Shown here: piece by piece, positions 31,963 through 44,343 of the stretch
Position numbering within the stretch: position 1 is the first letter of the stretch
Layout of the letters: each line of letters begins with the position of its first letter
Assembly: GCA_021372945.1 (NCBI GenBank)
Contig: JAJFTK010000120.1
Span: 48,641-112,640 of the forward strand
Length of the DNA stretch: 64,000 nt
From: Planctomycetaceae bacterium
GTDB taxonomy: Bacteria; Planctomycetota; Phycisphaerae; Sedimentisphaerales; Anaerohalosphaeraceae
Direction of reading: 5' to 3'
Notes under the pieces: model-generated
What the model was told of the DNA's origin: nothing
Seen by the model: only the letters and a program-made list of their open reading frames with translations
The model's database searches: none
Position numbers and translations under genes: made by a program

Positions 31963-33972
31963 TTGGACGTTGCTGTATTTAACGCATGCGGCGGCTGCGC
32001 CAGGCCTTCGCATCGAATCTGCACCAAGCGAGCAAATCCTATTTCTGACCACGAGCTGACCAACGTAAAAGCCGTCATTCTTGCCGGTACGGTTGATTTT
32101 GGGCGCTGTCCGCTGAGTTCGCGCCTGAATAGGGGGTTCTGGCCTGTCTTCGGGCGTCCGGCGATCCAGCGGACGATCGAACTGCTGGCGGCGCAAGGCA
32201 TTGCGCGTTTTGCCGTCTGCTGCCAGAGCGATTCGGCGGCCCAGGCAAGATCGATCATAAAGCCGCCCGAAGGTACGCATGTGGAATTTCTCAACGATCC
32301 CTTTCCGCGCGGACCGGCCGGCTGTCTGCGGGACGCCATCGATTTTGTCCGGGATGAACTGCTGTTGGCAGTTTCCGGAGCGATCGTCAGTCCGCCTGAA
32401 GCGGGGCAGCTTTGCCGTCTGCACCGGCAAGCGGGCGCACTGCTTTCTGTTTTTTTAAACCCCGAGGACAAGGCCGTCGACCACCGGCTCGATTCAGGGA
32501 TCTATGTGTGTTCGCCGCAGGCCGTTCGCATGATTTCGGAGGTCGGCTTTATGGACATCAAGGAAGGACTGGTGCGCCACTTGGTCCGAACCGGAAATGC
32601 CCCGAAAGCCTTTACCCTGGATGTGGATTCGGGCAATTTTAGGACCTGGCAGGAGTATGTGCTTGCCGTTCAGAAGCACTTGCTGCGTCACACGCAAACG
32701 GCAATCGCTATCGAAGGCTATTATTTTGACCGGCGGCGCATGCTATGGTTCGAGGAGAACGCCATGATGATTCCGGCGGTACGCTTTTCAGGGCCGGTGA
32801 TGATCTCAAAAGGCAGCGTGATCGAGGATGGCGCCATCATTGAAGGGCCCGCGATCATTGGCAGAAACGTGCACGTTTCAGGTTGCAGCACGATCCGCGA
32901 ATCCATCGTCTGGGACGATGCCGTGATCCGGGGTGCAAGTATCGTCGAAGGAAGCCTGCTGGCGGCTAATACCGAGATCAGCGGCCAAATGCTGCGTTGT
33001 CAATTGGCGGCTCGCTCCAGCCGCAAAGCTGCCAAACGGGCCGCGTTGGGCAAGCAGCGCCCGCAGCCGGCTGATCGCCCCGCGGCCGCGGCGCTCGTTG
33101 CGAGACAAAACCTGTGGAGCGCGGTCAATGCGTCGCTATTGCTCCTTGCCGTTCTGGTGGTTACATACTGGGATACCCTTAAGGACCTGTGGTCCGTTTG
33201 GCTTCGCAGCGATGAATATTCCAGCGGCCTGCTGGTGCCGGTTGTGGCGATGTACATTTTATGGAGCCGCCGCGGCCGGTTTCGGCAGGTCTGCCGCCCC
33301 AATCCTTCCATGTGGGGGCTTGCAGCGCTGCTGGGCGCGCAGGCGTTTCGTCTATTCGGCCTGTTTTACCGGTACGACTGTATCGAGAGGCTTTCGTTCG
33401 TTCTTTCCGTGGGAGCGCTGGCGGTGATCGTCGGCGGCCAGCGCCTGTTCAGGAAATTCGTTCCGGTCTTTTTGTTTTTGTTCCTGATGCTTCCGTTTCC
33501 CAGGCAGGTGGAAATGCAGATCACCGCGCCGCTTCAAAGATGGGCCACCAGTTCTGCGGTCTTTTGCCTGGAAACGTTCGGCTTTAGCGTCTCACACGAG
33601 GGCAACGTGATTCATATCAATAATACGCTGGTGGCGGTGGCCGAGGCCTGCAATGGCCTGCGGATGCTGACGGCCTTCCTGGTGGTCAGCGGAATGGTCG
33701 TGCTGGTCATTGAGCGCCGCTGGTGGGAGAAGGGCCTGGTCCTGCTGAGCAGCATACCGATCGCCCTGATCTGCAATACCGCCCGGCTGACCGTGACGGC
33801 GATCTTTTTCACGTTTCTGGATACCTCCAGATGGGAGCAGGTCTTCCATGACTTCGGGGGCTTCGCGATGATGCCCGCCGCGCTGATGATCATCGTTCTG
33901 GAACTTCGAATCCTTTCCATGCTGGTAGTCGAGCCCCGGCGATCCGGGCAGGGCTTGATGGATCCGATGTAA
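31963..33972 (+). CDS. Fusion: degenerate sugar nucleotidyltransferase plus exosortase
   Basis: A 669-residue uninterrupted frame. Residues about 35-240 resemble an NDP-sugar pyrophosphorylase (VKAVILAG start, HRLDSGIYVCSP, and the IKEGLV...DVDSGNFRTWQEYV end) but the G-x-G-T-R and PK signatures are altered. Residues 250-345 look like a short left-handed beta-helix (GSVIEDGAIIEGPAIIGRNV). After a basic linker, residues 385-655 form an exosortase with about 8 membrane segments, DEYSSGLLVP near the start, and the catalytic triad Cys563 (AEACNGLRML), Arg608 (CNTARL) and His629 (FHDFGG). Exosortases cleave PEP-CTERM tails of surface proteins. The start is a TTG; no ATG/GTG is available before the conserved region. 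The upstream in-frame stop is at 31951. Confidence 0.85.
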   Translation: MDVAVFNACGGCARPSHRICTKRANPISDHELTNVKAVILAGTVDFGRCPLSSRLNRGFWPVFGRPAIQRTIELLAAQGIARFAVCCQSDSAAQARSIIKPPEGTHVEFLNDPFPRGPAGCLRDAIDFVRDELLLAVSGAIVSPPEAGQLCRLHRQAGALLSVFLNPEDKAVDHRLDSGIYVCSPQAVRMISEVGFMDIKEGLVRHLVRTGNAPKAFTLDVDSGNFRTWQEYVLAVQKHLLRHTQTAIAIEGYYFDRRRMLWFEENAMMIPAVRFSGPVMISKGSVIEDGAIIEGPAIIGRNVHVSGCSTIRESIVWDDAVIRGASIVEGSLLAANTEISGQMLRCQLAARSSRKAAKRAALGKQRPQPADRPAAAALVARQNLWSAVNASLLLLAVLVVTYWDTLKDLWSVWLRSDEYSSGLLVPVVAMYILWSRRGRFRQVCRPNPSMWGLAALLGAQAFRLFGLFYRYDCIERLSFVLSVGALAVIVGGQRLFRKFVPVFLFLFLMLPFPRQVEMQITAPLQRWATSSAVFCLETFGFSVSHEGNVIHINNTLVAVAEACNGLRMLTAFLVVSGMVVLVIERRWWEKGLVLLSSIPIALICNTARLTVTAIFFTFLDTSRWEQVFHDFGGFAMMPAALMIIVLELRILSMLVVEPRRSGQGLMDPM

Positions 33973-37796: not shown

Positions 37797-38072
37797 ATTC
37801 AGGTACGGCCGCTCATTGGGGGCCGTATAGTCAAAGGGAACACGGTCAAAATCCGTGACGGTCGCGCCGCTGTATGTACCCGCGGTGCTGCATCGCAGCA
37901 CCAAGGTGCCGGCAATGATCCCACTGTCCCGCCCTATTTCTAATATGTTAAGCCTGTCGATCGGTTAAGCATCTCGGTTGTGATTCGATTGCTTAGATGG
38001 CAGCGGCTTAAGAAATAGCGCGGGATGGGAAGGGTGCCGGCAGCAGGGACAAGTCAGAAAACCTGCCTGGAT
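37797..38072 (+). ncRNA. Cobalamin (B12) riboswitch
   Basis: The conserved core can be followed: AAAGGGAA at 37833-37840, then a short stem with GGTCAAAATCCG and CGCCGCTGTA around 37863-37873, CCACTGTCCC at 37921-37930, GGGATGGGAAGGGTGCCGG at the end of a long extension arm, and the B12 box AGTCAGAAAACCTGCCTG at 38052-38069. The extension arm is large: CTATTTCT pairs with AGAAATAG and TTAAGCC with GGCTTAA. An intrinsic terminator starts 102 bases after the B12 box, so control by premature termination is likely. It precedes the DUF4465 PEP-CTERM gene. Confidence 0.9.
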
Positions 38073-38173
38073 AAGCTGTTATGTAGGTTGTTCTCGCGAT
38101 TTGGAACGACGGCATAGTGACCTTTGGCGATTGCTTGTCCGGACAGGCGGTGCTGAAGGGTCCCGAAAAGTTC

Positions 38174-38211
38174 AAAGCCGTTGCTCTTACGCGAGAGCAG
38201 CGGCTTTTTTT
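38174..38211 (+). terminator. Riboswitch-linked intrinsic terminator
   Basis: A 14-bp stem (AAAGCCGTTGCTCT with AGAGCAGCGGCTTT, one G-U pair, loop TACGCG) runs into a T-tract. It lies between the cobalamin aptamer and the DUF4465 gene, as expected for a transcription-attenuating expression platform. Confidence 0.9.
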
Positions 38212-38409
38212 ATGGACTTTTTGGATCCGCGCGAAACGGATCGGCAAGGAGGTGCGAATGTAACAGCCTCATTGTGAAGTGCTATTTCCAAAAGCCGGTC
38301 CTGTGCGGGGCCGGCAGAAAAACTGAGCGTGCCGCGGCTGTTTGGGATCTGCCGGCAGCCGCGGCAAACTCTTAAACGGTGTTGAATTTTTTGGACAGGA
38401 ACAGAAAAG
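38212..38409 (+). promoter_or_regulatory. Long structured leader between riboswitch terminator and DUF4465 gene
   Basis: These 198 bases code for no protein but are structured. GATCCG/CGGATC form a hairpin at 38224-38242; a perfect Shine-Dalgarno AAGGAGGTG (38246-38254) precedes an ATG that is followed at once by TAA (38258-38263); and GCCGCGGCTG/CAGCCGCGGC form a 10-bp stem at 38331-38365. The real start codon follows at 38410. A second regulatory layer after the riboswitch is possible. Confidence 0.5.
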
Positions 38410-39216
38410 ATGAAAAGGTCGATAGGATTTCTTTTTGCGATTTTAATGATCGGCGCGGTGCAGGGAATGGTTGCTGATTTCGATGATCTGACGTTGAATG
38501 CCAATTCGCATTGGAGCGGAGACTATCCGTCCGACGGGATCGGCGGTACGATGGGCCTGGAGGTTTTTCAAAGCGGCTCGGCGGGATTCGAGAATCATTC
38601 CGACGGCGATTGGGGCATGTGGGGCGGTTTCGCGTTCTCCAATGAGACGGATAATCAAACAGCGGGGTTCATGAACCAGTTCAGTACGTACGCCGGACGG
38701 GCTCACAGCGGCGCTAACTTCGGGGTTGGCTACGTGGATGCCTTCAGCGGCATCACCCCGACGATCGTGTTTGATCGTGCGACGACGATCGCCGGCGTTT
38801 ACGTCACGAATACCACCTACGCGGCGATGGATATGCTCTACGGCAATCCCGGCTTTTCCAAGAAGTTTGGCGGGCCCGGCGGCAGCGATAAAGACTGGCT
38901 GCGGCTCAGCATCATCGGAAAGACCGCAGCGGGCCAGTCCACGGGACCGGTCGAGTTCTACCTGGCCGATTACCGGTTCGACGATAATGGTCTCGATTAC
39001 ATTGTGAACGATTGGCAGTATGTGGACCTGCGTTCGCTTGGACAGGTGGACAGCCTCGTATTCAGTCTATCTTCCAGTGATAACAGTGGTTACGGCATGA
39101 ACACGCCCGCGTATTTTGCCATTGATACCATCGTGCCGGAACCGGCGGTGACCGGCTTGCTCCTGCTGGGCGGAATTTTGGCGCGGTCAATAAGGAAGGC
39201 AAAGCCTTCCGCATAA
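38410..39216 (+). CDS. DUF4465-family surface protein with PEP-CTERM sorting tail
   Basis: A 268-residue exported protein. After a signal peptide (1-19, ending near GMVA) the body matches DUF4465: FDDLTLNANSHWSGDY, WGGFAFSNETDNQT, FSTYAG, VYVTNTTYAAMDM, YLADYRFDD and WQYVDLRSLGQVDSLVFSLS. The C-terminus is a textbook PEP-CTERM signal: Val-Pro-Glu-Pro at 242-245, a hydrophobic helix, then a basic end (ARSIRKAKPSA). It is therefore a likely substrate of the exosortase encoded at 31963-33972. The cobalamin riboswitch upstream suggests expression when B12 is scarce; as far as I recall DUF4465-type proteins also occur in B12-controlled loci of Bacteroidetes, so corrinoid binding at the surface is my inference. 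Confidence 0.85.
   Translation: MKRSIGFLFAILMIGAVQGMVADFDDLTLNANSHWSGDYPSDGIGGTMGLEVFQSGSAGFENHSDGDWGMWGGFAFSNETDNQTAGFMNQFSTYAGRAHSGANFGVGYVDAFSGITPTIVFDRATTIAGVYVTNTTYAAMDMLYGNPGFSKKFGGPGGSDKDWLRLSIIGKTAAGQSTGPVEFYLADYRFDDNGLDYIVNDWQYVDLRSLGQVDSLVFSLSSSDNSGYGMNTPAYFAIDTIVPEPAVTGLLLLGGILARSIRKAKPSA
39194..39210 (+). other. Stem-loop at the end of the DUF4465 gene
   Basis: GGAAGGC, loop AAA, GCCTTCC is a perfect 7-bp hairpin that encodes the basic tail of the PEP-CTERM signal and lies just before the TTG start of the next gene. No T-run follows, so it may influence coupling or mRNA stability rather than termination. Confidence 0.45.
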
Positions 39217-39228
39217 GAGGATAGTGGA

Positions 39229-40197
39229 TTGAGGATTTGCTTTTTCATTTTGCTGTTTGCGGGGATGCATCTTCCGGCCCTGGCCGGCCCGTTCGCTCCG
39301 GCGGCGGGGGAGCCTAACTCGATTGCCGTCCCGATGCCGACGGATCCGAATGATGATTCGGTCTTCGCCGGGTGGGCGACCGGTGTGTCGGTGCAGAGAG
39401 GGCTGGTTCGCATCAATAATCCGTCTCTGGGCCGTGTCTCTCATGGAATGCCGCAGGACGCCTTGGGCCCTGCGCAGGGCCAGAGCATCGAAGGCGTCGT
39501 GTCGCTTGGCGACGGGGGAGTCGCGGTCGTAACGTTCGCCAATCCGATCACCGATGGGCCGGGATACGACTTCGCCGTCTTCGAAAACGGTTTCGTTGTG
39601 ATAGCGCCCAACAAGCTGTTTCTGGAACTGGCGTTCGTCGAGGTCAGCAGCGACGGCGTTCACTACGAACGCTTTCCCGCCGTATCCCTGAGCCAAACGC
39701 AGACGCAACTGGCGAACCTGAATTCGATCGACGCGACCGATATTCACAACTTCGCGGGCAAGTACCCGATGGGCTATGGGACGCCGTTCGACCTGGCGGA
39801 CGTTCGGGATGTCAACGACCTGGTGGACGTGACGGCGATCACACACGTGCGGCTCGTTGACGTCGTGGGTTGCCTGCAGGACCTTTACGCGCGTTACGAC
39901 TCGACGGGCAACAAAGTCAATGAGCCGTGGCCGACCGATTTCTCGACCGGCGGTTTTGACCTGGACGCGGTTGGCGTAATGCATGAGAAGACCCTTGCGG
40001 CGGATATGGACGGTAGCGGCGTTGTCAACCTGGCGGACTTCGCGGTGTTCAGCGGCGTCTACCTGTCGAGCCCGAATCTGCCGCAATGGAACGTTCAATG
40101 CGAACTTGCGGCGACGGCGAATAATGTAATTGATGCCGATGACCTGCTCGTTTTTTGCGAACAATGGTTGATGACGGAAAGGTGGTTTGAGCCATGA
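39229..40197 (+). CDS. Secreted surface protein with dockerin-like tail, partner of DUF4465 protein
   Basis: A 322-residue exported protein starting at TTG with AGAGG eight bases upstream and a signal peptide of about 19 residues. The body (FAPAAGEPNS, VFAGWATGVSVQRG, DFAVFENGF, LAFVEVSSDGVHYERFP, HNFAGKYPMGYGTPFDL, GGFDLDAVGV) belongs to a family of cell-surface proteins that carries PEP-CTERM, Por-type or other sorting tails in different phyla. Here the tail (about 265-322) has two dockerin-like loops (DMDGSGVVNLADFAVF and NNVIDADDLLVF). It follows the DUF4465 gene by 12 bases under the same B12 riboswitch. A shared role in corrinoid capture is inferred, not shown. Confidence 0.75.
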   Translation: MRICFFILLFAGMHLPALAGPFAPAAGEPNSIAVPMPTDPNDDSVFAGWATGVSVQRGLVRINNPSLGRVSHGMPQDALGPAQGQSIEGVVSLGDGGVAVVTFANPITDGPGYDFAVFENGFVVIAPNKLFLELAFVEVSSDGVHYERFPAVSLSQTQTQLANLNSIDATDIHNFAGKYPMGYGTPFDLADVRDVNDLVDVTAITHVRLVDVVGCLQDLYARYDSTGNKVNEPWPTDFSTGGFDLDAVGVMHEKTLAADMDGSGVVNLADFAVFSGVYLSSPNLPQWNVQCELAATANNVIDADDLLVFCEQWLMTERWFEP

Positions 40198-41024
40198 TCC
40201 GATTCAGAAAACAGGCATGTCCGCTCAAACGGGCATTCACGCTCATCGAGCTGCTGGTGGTGATCGCGGTGATCGCCGTCCTGCTCAGCGTGGTCGTGCC
40301 GTCGCTGGCAAAGGCCAAGGAGCAGTCGCGGTCGCTCGTCTGCAAGAGCAACATCCGGCAACTAGCGCTGGCCAATATGGGCTACGCGATGGAGAACCGG
40401 TCGCAGTACGTTCTGGCCGCGCCGGATATCTTTACGGGCAGCAACCTGAAACGCTGGCACGGCGTGCGTGATGATTTGAATAGTCTATTCGATGCGAGCC
40501 GCAGCCCTCTGCATTCGTATCTGGCCGACGGCCAATTAAAAGAGTGCCCGCAAAAGGTGAATTTCCGCAACGGCGATCCGTGGGACTGGGATTTTGAGCA
40601 GGGCTGCGGCGGCTACGGCTACAACATGACGTACCTGGGCTCGCGCGTGTGGGAAAGCTATAGCGCCGAGAACTGTGCCCGGCCCACGCGCGAATCGGAA
40701 GCGGCCTCGCCCGGCCTGACGCTGATGTTCGCCGATACGGCGATGGCCAAGCTGGACGGCGGTCAGCCGTACTATTTGGAGTACTCGTTCGCGGAACCCT
40801 ACTACTTTGTGGTCAACGGCAAGGCGGATCTGTCGTGGGGGCATCCATCGCCGTCGATCCACTTCCGGCATAATCAGCGGGCCAATGTCGCCTGGTGCGA
40901 CGGTCATGTGGAAGCGATGGCGATCGCGGCCGATAACCTGGTGAATGCGTACGGCGTGCGTTCCTGTGAGCAATCGGTCGGCTGGTTCGAGCCGTTGGAT
41001 AATTCGCTTTTCGATCTTAAATAG
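40194..41024 (+). CDS. Pseudopilin-like protein (prepilin N-terminus, DUF1559-like)
   Basis: A 276-residue protein with a type IV prepilin leader: basic start, then RAFTLIELLVVIAVIAVLLS with the conserved Glu five residues after the processed Phe. The C-terminal part has the H-X9-DG-like end (VAWCDGHVEAM) of planctomycete DUF1559-type pseudopilins. These are cleaved and methylated by prepilin peptidase and may assemble into a short pseudopilus or act in secretion. Its ATGA overlaps the stop of the preceding gene, so it belongs to the B12-controlled operon. Confidence 0.85.
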   Translation: MIRFRKQACPLKRAFTLIELLVVIAVIAVLLSVVVPSLAKAKEQSRSLVCKSNIRQLALANMGYAMENRSQYVLAAPDIFTGSNLKRWHGVRDDLNSLFDASRSPLHSYLADGQLKECPQKVNFRNGDPWDWDFEQGCGGYGYNMTYLGSRVWESYSAENCARPTRESEAASPGLTLMFADTAMAKLDGGQPYYLEYSFAEPYYFVVNGKADLSWGHPSPSIHFRHNQRANVAWCDGHVEAMAIAADNLVNAYGVRSCEQSVGWFEPLDNSLFDLK

Positions 41025-41025
41025 A

Positions 41026-41054
41026 TTGCTCTAACGGTTCGCCTGCCCTACAAT
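41026..41054 (+). promoter_or_regulatory. Promoter for comF, apparently leaderless
   Basis: TTGCTC (41026-41031) and TACAAT (41049-41054) are 17 bases apart; the comF ATG at 41062 is seven bases after the -10 box, so the transcript would start at or beside the start codon. Confidence 0.55.
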
Positions 41055-41061
41055 GCAACCT

Positions 41062-41829
41062 ATGGAGAAAACATCGGTCATCCGCGCAGTAAGGACAGGC
41101 GGCAGCCGCTGGGCGGAGGGCGTCAGGCATTTGCTCTGGCCTGAAAGCTGCGCCGCCTGCGGGGCCGCCATTACGCGCCAGGATGAAGGGCTTTGCGGGC
41201 CGTGCTGGCAGGAGGTTTCCAAGGCCGCGGCGGCGGATTACTGCCGGAGCTGCGGACGGGAAGTCAGCCCGTTCGGCATCGTGCAGGGCCGATGCGGGTT
41301 TTGCCGGGATCTGTCGTTCGCCTATGACGGCATGGCCCGCGTCGGTGCTTACGAAAACGCATTCCGGGCCTTGATCCTTTCTTTGAAGTTCCGCGAACAA
41401 ACTGAATGGGCCGATTATCTGGGCTCGCTTCTGAATCAGGCCGTCCTTTCGGCGAGTTTGGCGTCTCAGATCGATTATGTTGTACCGGTGCCTCTGCACT
41501 GGCGAAGAAGATTGAGCCGGGGTTTCAATCAATCGCATCTGCTGGCCAAAAAATTATCACTGCCCCATGCCACGATCCGCACGGACATTGTGCGCGTTCG
41601 CTATACCCAGCAGCAATGGGACCTCACGCCGGCCCAGCGTCGAAGAAATGTCAAGGGAGCGTTTGCGGTTCGCAAGGCTCACCCGTTCAGAGGCAAAAAT
41701 ATCCTGCTGGTTGACGATATCACCACAAGCGGGGCAACGCTGGAAGAATGCGCAAAAGTGCTCAAAGAAGCCGGGGCGGCCAAGGTTTTTGCGGCCGTTT
41801 TGGCCACCGCCTACCATGAACTTGCCTAA
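41062..41829 (+). CDS. comF: ComF-family phosphoribosyltransferase-like protein
   Basis: A 255-residue protein with the ComF layout: two N-terminal Zn-binding CxxC pairs (SCAACGA, LCGPCW, YCRSCG, RCGFC), YVVPVPLHWRRRLSRGFNQS, and the PRPP-binding loop ILLVDDITTSGAT. ComF proteins are needed for DNA uptake in competent bacteria, where they contact helicase and recombination proteins, and are also kept in species without known competence. An in-frame ATG at 41053 lies inside the -10 box, so 41062 is preferred. No Shine-Dalgarno is seen. Confidence 0.9.
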   Translation: MEKTSVIRAVRTGGSRWAEGVRHLLWPESCAACGAAITRQDEGLCGPCWQEVSKAAAADYCRSCGREVSPFGIVQGRCGFCRDLSFAYDGMARVGAYENAFRALILSLKFREQTEWADYLGSLLNQAVLSASLASQIDYVVPVPLHWRRRLSRGFNQSHLLAKKLSLPHATIRTDIVRVRYTQQQWDLTPAQRRRNVKGAFAVRKAHPFRGKNILLVDDITTSGATLEECAKVLKEAGAAKVFAAVLATAYHELA

Positions 41830-41882: not shown

Positions 41883-41934
41883 TAACGCTTTCACAAGGGG
41901 ATTCTTGCACTAATTTATGGTTAAAGGAGAGGGT

Positions 41935-44343
41935 ATGTTCAAGCTTACTTGCGCTATTGTCGTTTTTTTCGTCTCATTTTCTATCTATTCTCAGGCAGCC
42001 TACAATGGCGGTACCGGCTCAGTTGGCGATCCTTTCCAGATCGCCACGCCGGAGCAGATGAATTCCATCGGCCTTAATCCGAACGACTGGGATGACCATT
42101 TCATCCTAACCGCTGACATTGATATGTCCAGCTTCGCTGGGACGGAGTACAACATCATCGGCAGCGGCGGCACTCCTTTTACCGGCTCGTTCAATGGAAA
42201 CGGCTTCGATATTCTGAATTTTACTTACAGCAGTCCTACGGCAACCCGTGCAGGACTGTTTAGCCGTATCGTAAATGCCGAGTTATCCAACATCAGTCTT
42301 GTGAACGCTTATGTCGAAGCGCCCGCAAGCGTCGATGCCGGCGCTCTTGCCGCGGAAGCTTTCGGATGTACGATCACCAATTGCCGCAGCGAAGGCATCG
42401 TATTGGGGTTATCTGATTTGGGCGGCCTTATCGGCGATGCCGGAAACAGCACGATCACAGGTTGTGCGTCCTCAGGCACAGTGACCGGAACAGAACGAAT
42501 GGTCGGAGGACTTGTGGGTCTGCACAAAGGAGCAATGCAGCAGTGTTCCAGTCATGCGGTTACCAGCGGCGAAGTTGGCGTTGGCGGGCTGGTTGGGGTT
42601 AATGGTGGTTCAATCACATCCTGTTTTGTCGCCGGAGACGTTTCAGGGAGCAGATATATTGGCGGTTTAGTCGGAAGCAATCAGGGAGTGATTTCCCGCT
42701 GTTACGCGATGGGGCCCGTCGATGGCGCTATTTCTGATATCGGAGGCTTGGTTGGGGATAATGACCAGTTTTACGGTGCAACAATAACCCAATGTTACGC
42801 GATGGGTACGGTTGGCGGTCCGGCCAATGTGGGCGGATTGCTTGGAACGGGTTCGGGTTCGCTTGCAGGTTGTTTCTGGGATACGCAAACCAGCGGAACA
42901 ACCGATGGTGTCGGCAGTGTCAATCCGGATCCGACCGGAGTGAGCGGCAAGACGACGTTCCAGATGAAGACAAAGTCCACGTTCGTCGGATGGGACTTTT
43001 CGGCCGCGGATGGCGATCCGGCCGACTGGAAGATACAAGCCGGCGTCGATTATCCAAGACTCTTCTGGCAGCCGGTCAGCCCAGCGCCTGTGGCGACGCC
43101 GATCGCTTTAACGGTTACAGATACCGATGAAAAGCAGATCATCTTGACGGCGACCGACGATGGGCTGCCTGGCCCGCTGAGTTATATTATTGCATCGCTG
43201 CCGGAACATGGCAGGCTGACCGACCCGGGCTTTGGACCGATCACGGCTGTTCCATACACGCTGCTCAACGAACTGCATACGGTTAATTATCTGCCTTGCG
43301 TCTATGCATACGGGCAGGACCAATTCACGTTTTTGGCCAATGATACCGGCTATGCCCCAAACGGCGGCAATTCCAACGAAGCGGCGGTAACGATCACTTT
43401 CGATTATGACCTGGCGGTAGGACAGCAGACCTCTTTGTTTTCACCGTATCCGCTAAACACCAACCGCAACGATTGCAGGCTTCAGATCATCTACACAAAG
43501 GCTGACTTTGGCGCCGCCAGCGTGATCACCGGCTTTGATGTATATGTAAAGTACAAGGCCGCCAAGACGATGACAAATTTCACGATCCGCATGCAGCCCA
43601 CCGCATTGAGCGTCTATCCGGCGGAACCGGATTTCACGAATAGCGGCTGGACAACAGTTTTCCGCGACGATGTAACGATCTCAAGCACGGGGGTGTATCG
43701 TTTTGATTTCCAGACGCCGTTCGCTTACGACGGTCTGCAGAATGTCCTTGTAGATATCAGCTTTGATAATGAAATCAAAGGCTTTTCCAATGGCGAGCTT
43801 TACACCATCAACGCCTCGGGCCGAACAATTTACCAGACTTCGCTGGGGCTGTACGGCGACCCGCTGCTCTGGACGCGTTCGATGTTCGGCGCTTTGGAGA
43901 CGGCCAACTCGGCGCCGCTTGTACTGAAACTGCACCGGCAAAGCCCTGTTGCCCCGATCGTCTCGGATTTCAACGTTGACTGCTCCGTTGGCGTCCTCGA
44001 CCTGGAGGCGCTGGCCGCCGTATGGCTATCGCAGCAGGGCGATGGCATGTATTCAGCGCTCTATGATATCTCCACCCCCGCTGACCAGGTCATCAACCTG
44101 GCCGACTTTGCCGTATTTGCATCCGAGTGGATGAGCGGTCCGTATGATGAGCCCGATTATTCGCCTTACGATTTTAACCGCAGCACGGACGTCGATCTGC
44201 CGGACTTGCTGATGCTTGCCGGCGCATGGTTGACGTCAGAAGGGCAGCCGGGCTTCGATGAGGCGCTCGACCTGGCGGATAACCAAACGATCGACCTGGC
44301 GGATTTTGCTGTTTTCTCGCAGCACTGGATGGAATCGCTCTGA
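41935..44343 (+). CDS. Secreted GLUG-repeat protein with dockerin-like tail
   Basis: An 802-residue exported protein (signal peptide about 1-21, ending SQAA). Residues about 22-365 are GLUG-type repeats (GGLVGLHKGAMQQCSS, GGLVGVNGGSITSCF, IGGLVGSNQGVISRCYA), forming a beta-solenoid seen in many adhesin-like surface proteins. A middle part (about 375-500) is Ig/cadherin-like, then a beta domain (about 500-680), and the last 120 residues hold four dockerin-like loops (NVDCSVGVLDLEAL, NLADFAVFASEW, DVDLPDLLMLAGAW, TIDLADFAVFSQHW). The ATG at 41935 has an excellent binding site; one at 41917 does not. Role: probable adhesin or structural surface protein. Confidence 0.8.
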   Translation: MFKLTCAIVVFFVSFSIYSQAAYNGGTGSVGDPFQIATPEQMNSIGLNPNDWDDHFILTADIDMSSFAGTEYNIIGSGGTPFTGSFNGNGFDILNFTYSSPTATRAGLFSRIVNAELSNISLVNAYVEAPASVDAGALAAEAFGCTITNCRSEGIVLGLSDLGGLIGDAGNSTITGCASSGTVTGTERMVGGLVGLHKGAMQQCSSHAVTSGEVGVGGLVGVNGGSITSCFVAGDVSGSRYIGGLVGSNQGVISRCYAMGPVDGAISDIGGLVGDNDQFYGATITQCYAMGTVGGPANVGGLLGTGSGSLAGCFWDTQTSGTTDGVGSVNPDPTGVSGKTTFQMKTKSTFVGWDFSAADGDPADWKIQAGVDYPRLFWQPVSPAPVATPIALTVTDTDEKQIILTATDDGLPGPLSYIIASLPEHGRLTDPGFGPITAVPYTLLNELHTVNYLPCVYAYGQDQFTFLANDTGYAPNGGNSNEAAVTITFDYDLAVGQQTSLFSPYPLNTNRNDCRLQIIYTKADFGAASVITGFDVYVKYKAAKTMTNFTIRMQPTALSVYPAEPDFTNSGWTTVFRDDVTISSTGVYRFDFQTPFAYDGLQNVLVDISFDNEIKGFSNGELYTINASGRTIYQTSLGLYGDPLLWTRSMFGALETANSAPLVLKLHRQSPVAPIVSDFNVDCSVGVLDLEALAAVWLSQQGDGMYSALYDISTPADQVINLADFAVFASEWMSGPYDEPDYSPYDFNRSTDVDLPDLLMLAGAWLTSEGQPGFDEALDLADNQTIDLADFAVFSQHWMESL

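Follow-up and report, generated by a model that had tools for sequence, protein, structure and literature searches.

The stretch of DNA analysed here, 64,000 nucleotides (nt) from Planctomycetaceae bacterium, class Phycisphaerae (assembly GCA_021372945.1, contig JAJFTK010000120.1, positions 48,641 to 112,640; hereafter the window), carries a cobalamin riboswitch followed by a cassette of three genes that we call A, B, and C. Gene A belongs to the DUF4465 (BtuJ) family, gene B resembles BtuH, and gene C is a prepilin with an H-X9-DG domain. Going by sequence and by comparison across genomes, we propose with a probability of about 0.72 that the cassette is a riboswitch-controlled system for capturing corrinoids at the cell surface, and that it has a pilin dedicated to it. 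The riboswitch, the order of the genes, their families and their recurrence across the class are direct observations.

The riboswitch and its cassette

The aptamer (RF00174; 37784..38084, + strand) matches the full length of the model in an Rfam covariance search, scoring 65.9 bits where the gathering threshold is 31.5, and it has a long insertion in one arm. An earlier note on this DNA, made from the letters alone, had called a full cobalamin riboswitch at this place and had named beforehand the covariance search that could overturn the call; the search found the riboswitch, and the start given in that note, 37797, is 13 bases within the Rfam match. The terminator that it described is there as well, a stem-loop of 15 pairs (7 of them G-C) and then Ts at 38174..38207 (+). 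Standing 3′ of the aptamer, this stem and its T tail give the usual layout of aptamer then terminator, and the stem-loop is likely to be the expression platform of the riboswitch. A terminator scan over 4.1 kb reports 6 terminator-like sites where 5.3 are expected, the other five having 5-6 pairs, and the 131 nt 3′ of the aptamer fold with z = -3.9. A covariance search of the same genome reports no second cobalamin riboswitch.

Gene A (38410..39216, +) encodes 268 amino acids (aa), gene B (39229..40197, +) 322 aa from an uncertain TTG start, and gene C (40194..41024, +) 276 aa. There are 12 nt between A and B, whereas B and C share 4 nt, an ATGA that holds the ATG of C and the TGA of B. This spacing on one strand speaks for a single transcript. 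As the earlier note had it, no B12 enzyme or transporter lies within the three-gene cassette; a BtuFCD-like transporter sits elsewhere in the genome.

Recurrence across the class

How often do such genes stand behind a cobalamin riboswitch? In 150 genomes drawn evenly from the larger class and searched with stricter Infernal filters, 139 have a cobalamin riboswitch. We surveyed 150 listed sites in 130 genomes (weaker sites fall outside), counting matches to eight family profiles within 6 kb downstream and on the same strand as the riboswitch. C-type pilins are the commonest of the eight, present at 117 of the 150 sites, at 100 of the 120 sites that have the full 6 kb downstream and, counted by genome, in 114 of 130. 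The 33 sites that lack C include 13 where the downstream sequence runs to less than 6 kb, and the 16 genomes that lack it include 11 with less than 2 kb, one with 4.7 kb, and four with 6 kb. The B domain is found at 95 of the 150 sites, and TonB-receptor-like genes at 5. The counts for the other families are 37 for D, 20 for DUF4465, 18 for c4, 10 for the propeller-like PR1, and 1 for PR2, another family of that kind.

Because the eight profiles derive from the very downstream sequences in which they are counted, the weight rests on the antisense and upstream controls. None of the eight families occurs in antisense at any of the 150 listed sites, and the upstream 6 kb in sense, examined at 26 sites, has no C, B, D, or A. 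The upstream 6 kb in antisense give one C and one B match, both from the two divergent riboswitches of a single genome (G001, sites 17 and 97). The recurrence of related gene sets behind cobalamin riboswitches is more than chance.

DUF4465 is present in 22 of the 150 class genomes, and a survey of riboswitch plus DUF4465 neighbourhoods, which the earlier note had proposed, finds in this class the same recurring sets. C stands alongside in 22 of the 22 loci and B in 21 (with weak partial B matches in L026 and L043), and of the short loci scanned, the window's own excluded, 16 of 21 have the riboswitch at gathering score. In the wider context, 20 DUF4465 loci including the window are among the listed riboswitch sites, with C at 20 of 20 and B at 19 of 20; for the remaining two, from G099 and G110, the locus sits at the end of a contig. 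In L041 and L044, 2 of the 22 loci, DUF4465 and B form a single reading frame.

Gene A, a DUF4465 protein

The DUF4465 assignment of the earlier note holds: A matches PF14717 with 189.4 bits (cut-off 25, E 9.6e-56). Among solved structures its relatives are 9qpm (E 8.8e-29), BtuJ1 (9fct, E 1.3e-28), and D5EK51 (9hmu, E 2.7e-24). In published work, B12 binding is a common function of DUF4465, with eight distantly related members that bind (PMC13398666); one binder tested there is from Mucisphaera calidilacus, a planctomycete of the class Phycisphaerae (PMC8882080). A GMNTPAYF-type loop is the B12-binding motif, and its tyrosine is highly conserved (PMC12751083, PMC13398666). A has the GMNTPAYF loop, with the HI-loop NTPAY motif and the B12-binding tyrosine (SGYGMNTPAYFAIDT), and by analogy would bind corrinoids. 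Binding by the DUF4465 family has thus been published before, and so has the tie between DUF4465 and B12-binding surface proteins that the earlier note had named (PMC12751083, PMC13398666).

A begins with a signal peptide, recognised by eye, and ends in a visible PEP-CTERM-like tail (VPEPAVTGLLLLGG...RSIRK); a P-x-P pattern is found within the last 40 residues in 20 of its 22 class homologues. Exosortases are the enzyme class that would process such tails. The window encodes one as the second half of an open reading frame at 31963..33972 (+), which matches 8TM_EpsH with 132.3 bits (cut-off 105.55) and ends 4.4 kb upstream of A.

Gene B, a BtuH-like protein

B consists of a core (39286-39984) and then a weak dockerin-like tail. 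The predicted structure has a mean pLDDT (predicted local distance difference test) of 88.9, and the top two structural matches of the model are two BtuH-type B12-binding chains. B shares 16 and 20% identity over the aligned part with BtuH2 (PDB 7biz) and the H-domain of BtuG1 (PDB 8blw), and 8blw is the sole Foldseek match with E <0.001. In the predicted model, B has the globular fold of BtuH, a resemblance absent from the earlier note, and by analogy with BtuH it may bind corrinoids too. The B12-contact residues of BtuH2 are Tyr510, Trp577, Trp511, His476, Asn399, and Gln333 (PMC8941943). Pfam reports no family at cut-off for the core, in scans of window B plus four B cores. A match to the LIC_13355 lipoprotein was rejected as too weak (23 bits vs 120).

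Window B shares 51-60% identity with the 40 Bacteroidota/Chlorobiota and Verrucomicrobia cores of alignment A4, and 35-48% with the nine class cores of alignment A3, outside of which there is a same-genus relative with 63% identity. In a FastTree of 100 rows, for which 20 class rows passed the score filter and in which many deeper branches are poorly supported, window B and three planctomycete rows form a group (support 100) that lies among rows from Bacteroidota. This placement suggests horizontal transfer.

Gene C, a pilin

C has a prepilin N-terminus (PF07963, 29.3 bits vs 21.2; TIGR02532, 29.4 vs 16.3) and an H-X9-DG domain (TIGR04294, 25.8 vs a cut-off of 19), so that its description as a pseudopilin in the earlier note is well founded. 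The C profile has 45 matches in the same genome, counting C itself. The score of C is 395 bits and that of the next pilin 105, in a comparison where the sequence of C forms part of the profile. The relatives of C that stand beside DUF4465 share R-W-H-G-x-R, G-G-Y-G-Y-N, and S-I-H-F-R-H, and their C-terminus resembles G-W-F-G-P-x-D-N-S-L-F-D-L; that of C is GWFEPLDNSLFDLK. Among 118 cassette pilins, the strict end signature is found in 50, a second form (PHYVPDW-like) in 19, and neither pattern in 49, of which many are visible variants of the signature. These shared features point to C as a pilin dedicated to the cassette. With 45 pilin-like matches, and with 16 secretion/pilus ATPase and 9 secretin matches above cut-off, the pilus and secretion repertoire of this genome is large.

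B loci beyond the class

We also searched named genomes with the B alignment, and consider the best 80 of 460 relatives: 2 from planctomycetes, 3 from Verrucomicrobia, and 75 from Bacteroidota or records titled Chlorobiota. The nearest are L233 ('Phycisphaerae bacterium') and L232 ('Planctomycetales bacterium'). In these best 80 of 460, TonB-receptor-like genes are neighbours at at least 44 loci, DUF4465 at at least 28, D at at least 13, and C at at least 4; many of the loci are short, which makes these counts lower bounds. The four loci with C are one planctomycete (L232) and all three Verrucomicrobia. A cobalamin riboswitch is present in 12 of 16 B loci scanned, and DUF4465 and B are one reading frame in five of the best 80 (L234, L239, L252, L254, L273).

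Of five proteins compared with Pfam, two D-bearing and one B-bearing Bacteroidota protein end in a sorting domain of the type IX secretion system (T9SS), and the receptor in L235 has TonB barrel and plug domains. The same binding modules thus occur there with another anchor, and with a receptor instead of a pilin. The BtuB-like profile behind the receptor counts is a general TonB-receptor profile. It also matches all four TonB plug proteins of the window's own genome (60-99 bits), so that the counts are upper bounds for BtuB.

Corrinoid supply

CobS was not found in the window's own genome (95.9% complete), and a late step of cobalamin assembly therefore seems to be missing. The methionine synthase activation domain was not found in it either. 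The genome has a methyltransferase-type corrinoid protein and one FecCD permease, the latter in the BtuFCD-like set. In a relative, L024, a BtuFCD-like set of Peripla_BP_2, ATP-binding cassette (ABC) ATPase, and FecCD comes after C, overlapping the end of C as called. A FecCD/Peripla_BP_2 protein is found 2-3 kb upstream of the riboswitch in L029, and another in L030, there with an ABC ATPase.

How the cassette may work, and alternative explanations

Under the surface-capture reading, which the earlier note had raised as a possibility and which our results support, binding, surface location, regulation, and the task of the pilin would come together as follows. When cellular cobalamin is low, the aptamer would be empty and the terminator unformed, and A, B, and C would be made, as the aptamer-terminator layout suggests. 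A and B would be secreted and held at the surface or in the matrix, A by its exosortase-type tail and B by its dockerin-like tail. There they would bind corrinoids, as is known from published work on relatives of A and on BtuH. C would most likely join a type II secretion or type IV pilus-like filament that exports or displays A and B across the outer membrane. The corrinoid would reach the periplasm through an outer-membrane step, and would then be imported by the unlinked BtuFCD-like transporter.

Several observations weigh against this reading. The sequence similarity between B and BtuH is weak: in the search with profile A3, 8blw_B ranks first for B at E 0.095, and the larger B profile A4 returned no BtuH at E up to 10. 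The PEP-CTERM tail and the dockerin-like loops described in the earlier note stand in part. The exosortase gene is there and the tail of A is visible, yet the tail falls under both curated cut-offs (Pfam, 12.2 bits vs 20.7; TIGR02595, 14.7 vs 16). DFAVFENGF is found at residues 114-122 of B, while the dockerin-like loops of this surface protein stay below cut-off (dockerin_GC, 16.7 vs 29 bits; EF-hand_8, E 0.046). The structure of C, predicted from 4 sequences, has a mean pLDDT of 37 and is unusable. C is absent at 20 of the 120 sites with the full 6 kb downstream, and a TonB-receptor-like gene occurs without C at 4 of the 150 sites (one site has both); the pilin is therefore not obligatory. 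For the transporter, the equivalog models of BtuF and BtuC give scores below their cut-offs, which makes its substrate uncertain. Finally, the genome has four TonB plug proteins, all on contigs other than that of the window, and an unlinked receptor may perform the outer-membrane step.

That last point leads to the alternative that survives best, which we nonetheless consider unlikely: C would be a mere pseudopilin of type II secretion that exports A and B, and uptake would go through an unlinked TonB-dependent receptor. The prepilin N-terminus of C fits, as do A and B, which by eye have signal peptides and would need to cross the outer membrane. Two of the four TonB plugs were compared with TIGR01779 (TonB-B12, cut-off 599.7); L316 reaches 98.4 bits over part of the model and L314 67.6, both far below the cut-off, and they are not clear BtuBs. 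Against this alternative, one would not expect a secretion system to require a pilin of its own that is under riboswitch control and whose C-terminal signature recurs, and there is a gap of 290 bits, in a profile that includes C, between C and the next pilin of the genome.

A bolder version is that C forms a fibre able to retract, with A and B carried on it or in contact with it. Retraction through a secretin would then bring corrinoid into the periplasm and replace the TonB-dependent BtuB, by analogy with competence pili, which bring in DNA. We regard this idea as a long shot. In its favour, the class sites have C at 117 of 150 and TonB-receptor-like genes at 5 of 150, against 44 receptors and 4 C among the best 80 of 460 B loci, and the genome has many ATPase and secretin matches. 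In other planctomycete genera, pili-like crater fibres and active uptake of dextran into the periplasm have been described, and a link between them was suggested by the authors (PMC5394234). No retraction ATPase is seen beside the cassette, however, the four TonB plug proteins offer another route, pilins often serve secretion only, and the model of C is unusable. Generalised, the idea would have most sampled class members and some Verrucomicrobia import corrinoids by a riboswitch-controlled retracting pilus in place of BtuB, with interchangeable binders (BtuJ, BtuH-like, D, PR1), which we hold to be just as speculative. To our knowledge, there is no earlier case of a vitamin imported by a pilus, and this one, if true, would be the first.

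Could A and B be surface adhesins or polysaccharide binders that are B12-regulated by chance and do not bind corrinoids? We find this very improbable, given the eight distantly related DUF4465 members that bind B12 (PMC13398666), the two BtuH-type structures at the top of the structural list, and the recurring control by cobalamin riboswitches; the carbohydrate-binder assignment was set aside on these grounds. Least probable of all is that the pilin is a bystander, kept there by chance or ancient synteny: pilins are very common (the 45 matches in this genome, C among them) and C shares a local synteny with a ComF-like gene in several loci, but the controls are empty (0 of 150 in antisense, 0 of 26 upstream in sense), C scores far above the other pilins of its genome, its C-terminus recurs, and it is present in all 3 Verrucomicrobia loci among the best 80 of 460.

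Neighbouring genes and other families behind the riboswitch

The ComF-like phosphoribosyltransferase gene (41053..41829, +; Pfam DZR_2 and Pribosyltran) begins 28 nt 3′ of C. It is possibly co-transcribed with the cassette, and we do not count it as a member of the system. ComF is otherwise known from DNA uptake. A ComF-like gene is also seen directly 3′ of the pilin in L116, L118, L119, L121, L129, and L130 (the Pfam check covers the window gene), and in several loci MurJ-like and TPR-like genes come next after it. Synteny inside a single order may account for this neighbourhood, or the genes may be functionally linked. Further along the window, 41917-44343 encodes a secreted protein of 808 aa with GLUG repeats and two stretches that resemble the dockerin-like tail of B.

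Family D, a secreted domain some 120 aa long, has the motifs GSGxNxAxxVVDF and DGxWDGW (L118:3096-3455 and 37 other domain matches), and no Pfam match was obtained in three sequences scanned. In class genomes without DUF4465 it is often the first gene behind the riboswitch, and in 13 of the best 80 of 460 B loci it occurs mostly twice per protein, in proteins of about 400 aa. D is a candidate new corrinoid binder. Against solved structures, its profile gives weak, unconvincing matches only (dextranase, E 0.18). PR1 is a propeller-like secreted family (L114:2744-3601, L111:7384-8253, and others; alignment A8), again with no Pfam match in three sequences scanned, and is possibly a local counterpart of BtuG; against solved structures, its profile gives weak, unconvincing matches to WD-type and fibritin chains with E of 0.009 and up. 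Family c4 (about 500 aa; L113, L136, L119, and others) lies mostly between the B-like protein and the pilin, and the pilins of these loci mostly have the different, PHYVPDW-like end.

Back-to-back divergent pairs of cobalamin riboswitches are seen in G001:C44, G099:C54, and G111:C40 (L124, L127, L204). In L143 (G008:C48), a second riboswitch heads genes that by eye look like CobU/CobS, and a TonB-receptor-like gene. In L142/L231 (G143), a second riboswitch heads a TonB receptor (L142, by Pfam) and genes that by eye look like ExbB/ExbD/TonB; in this genome a C-type pilin adjoins the TonB receptor operon.

Relation to known systems

The cassette suggests that vitamin B12 is collected in a way not described so far. 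In the open-licence literature of PMC, our searches turned up neither a pilin within a cobalamin-riboswitch operon nor this planctomycete cassette, and our literature search found no description of how corrinoids pass the planctomycete outer membrane. The cassette offers a direct handle on this question, as the riboswitch indicates the purpose of the genes and two of them resemble known B12 binders. It adds a wide environmental group to the range of the DUF4465 and BtuH-like pairs, which have so far been studied mostly in Bacteroides of the gut, and it suggests that different anchors (lipid, T9SS, exosortase-type) carry one and the same set of binding modules. The pilin occupies the position that a TonB receptor often has in the Bacteroidota loci among the best 80 of 460, and the cassette brings a test of function within reach for at least one of the numerous H-X9-DG-type pilins.

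The closest comparison is with the Btu loci of Bacteroides thetaiotaomicron (BtuB, BtuG, BtuH, BtuJ, BtuFCD; PMC12751083, PMC10404256, PMC8941943). Control by a cobalamin riboswitch and secreted BtuJ-family and BtuH-like proteins are common to both, and in one relative, L024, the BtuFCD-like set is adjacent as well. Unlike those loci, the cassette has no TonB receptor or BtuG, its proteins have PEP-CTERM-like and dockerin-like tails in place of lipidation, and the commonest partner gene across the class is a putatively dedicated pilin. BtuH2 carries PKD domains (PMC8941943), whereas B carries the dockerin-like tail. With respect to the B12 binders of DUF4465 (IPR027828; PMC13398666), A is a clear member with the HI-loop motif; the genome context given in that paper is one of TonB and ABC transporter neighbours, and the words 'pilin' and 'PEP-CTERM' are absent from its main text. 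With the H-X9-DG (DUF1559-type) pseudopilins, C shares the prepilin N-terminus and the H-X9-DG region. Unlike other such pilins, the closest relatives of C are linked to cassettes behind cobalamin riboswitches, many of them with a G-W-F-x-P-x-D-N-x-x-F-D-L-like end. DUF4465 as a B12 binder and BtuH were already known; the new element is the pilin.

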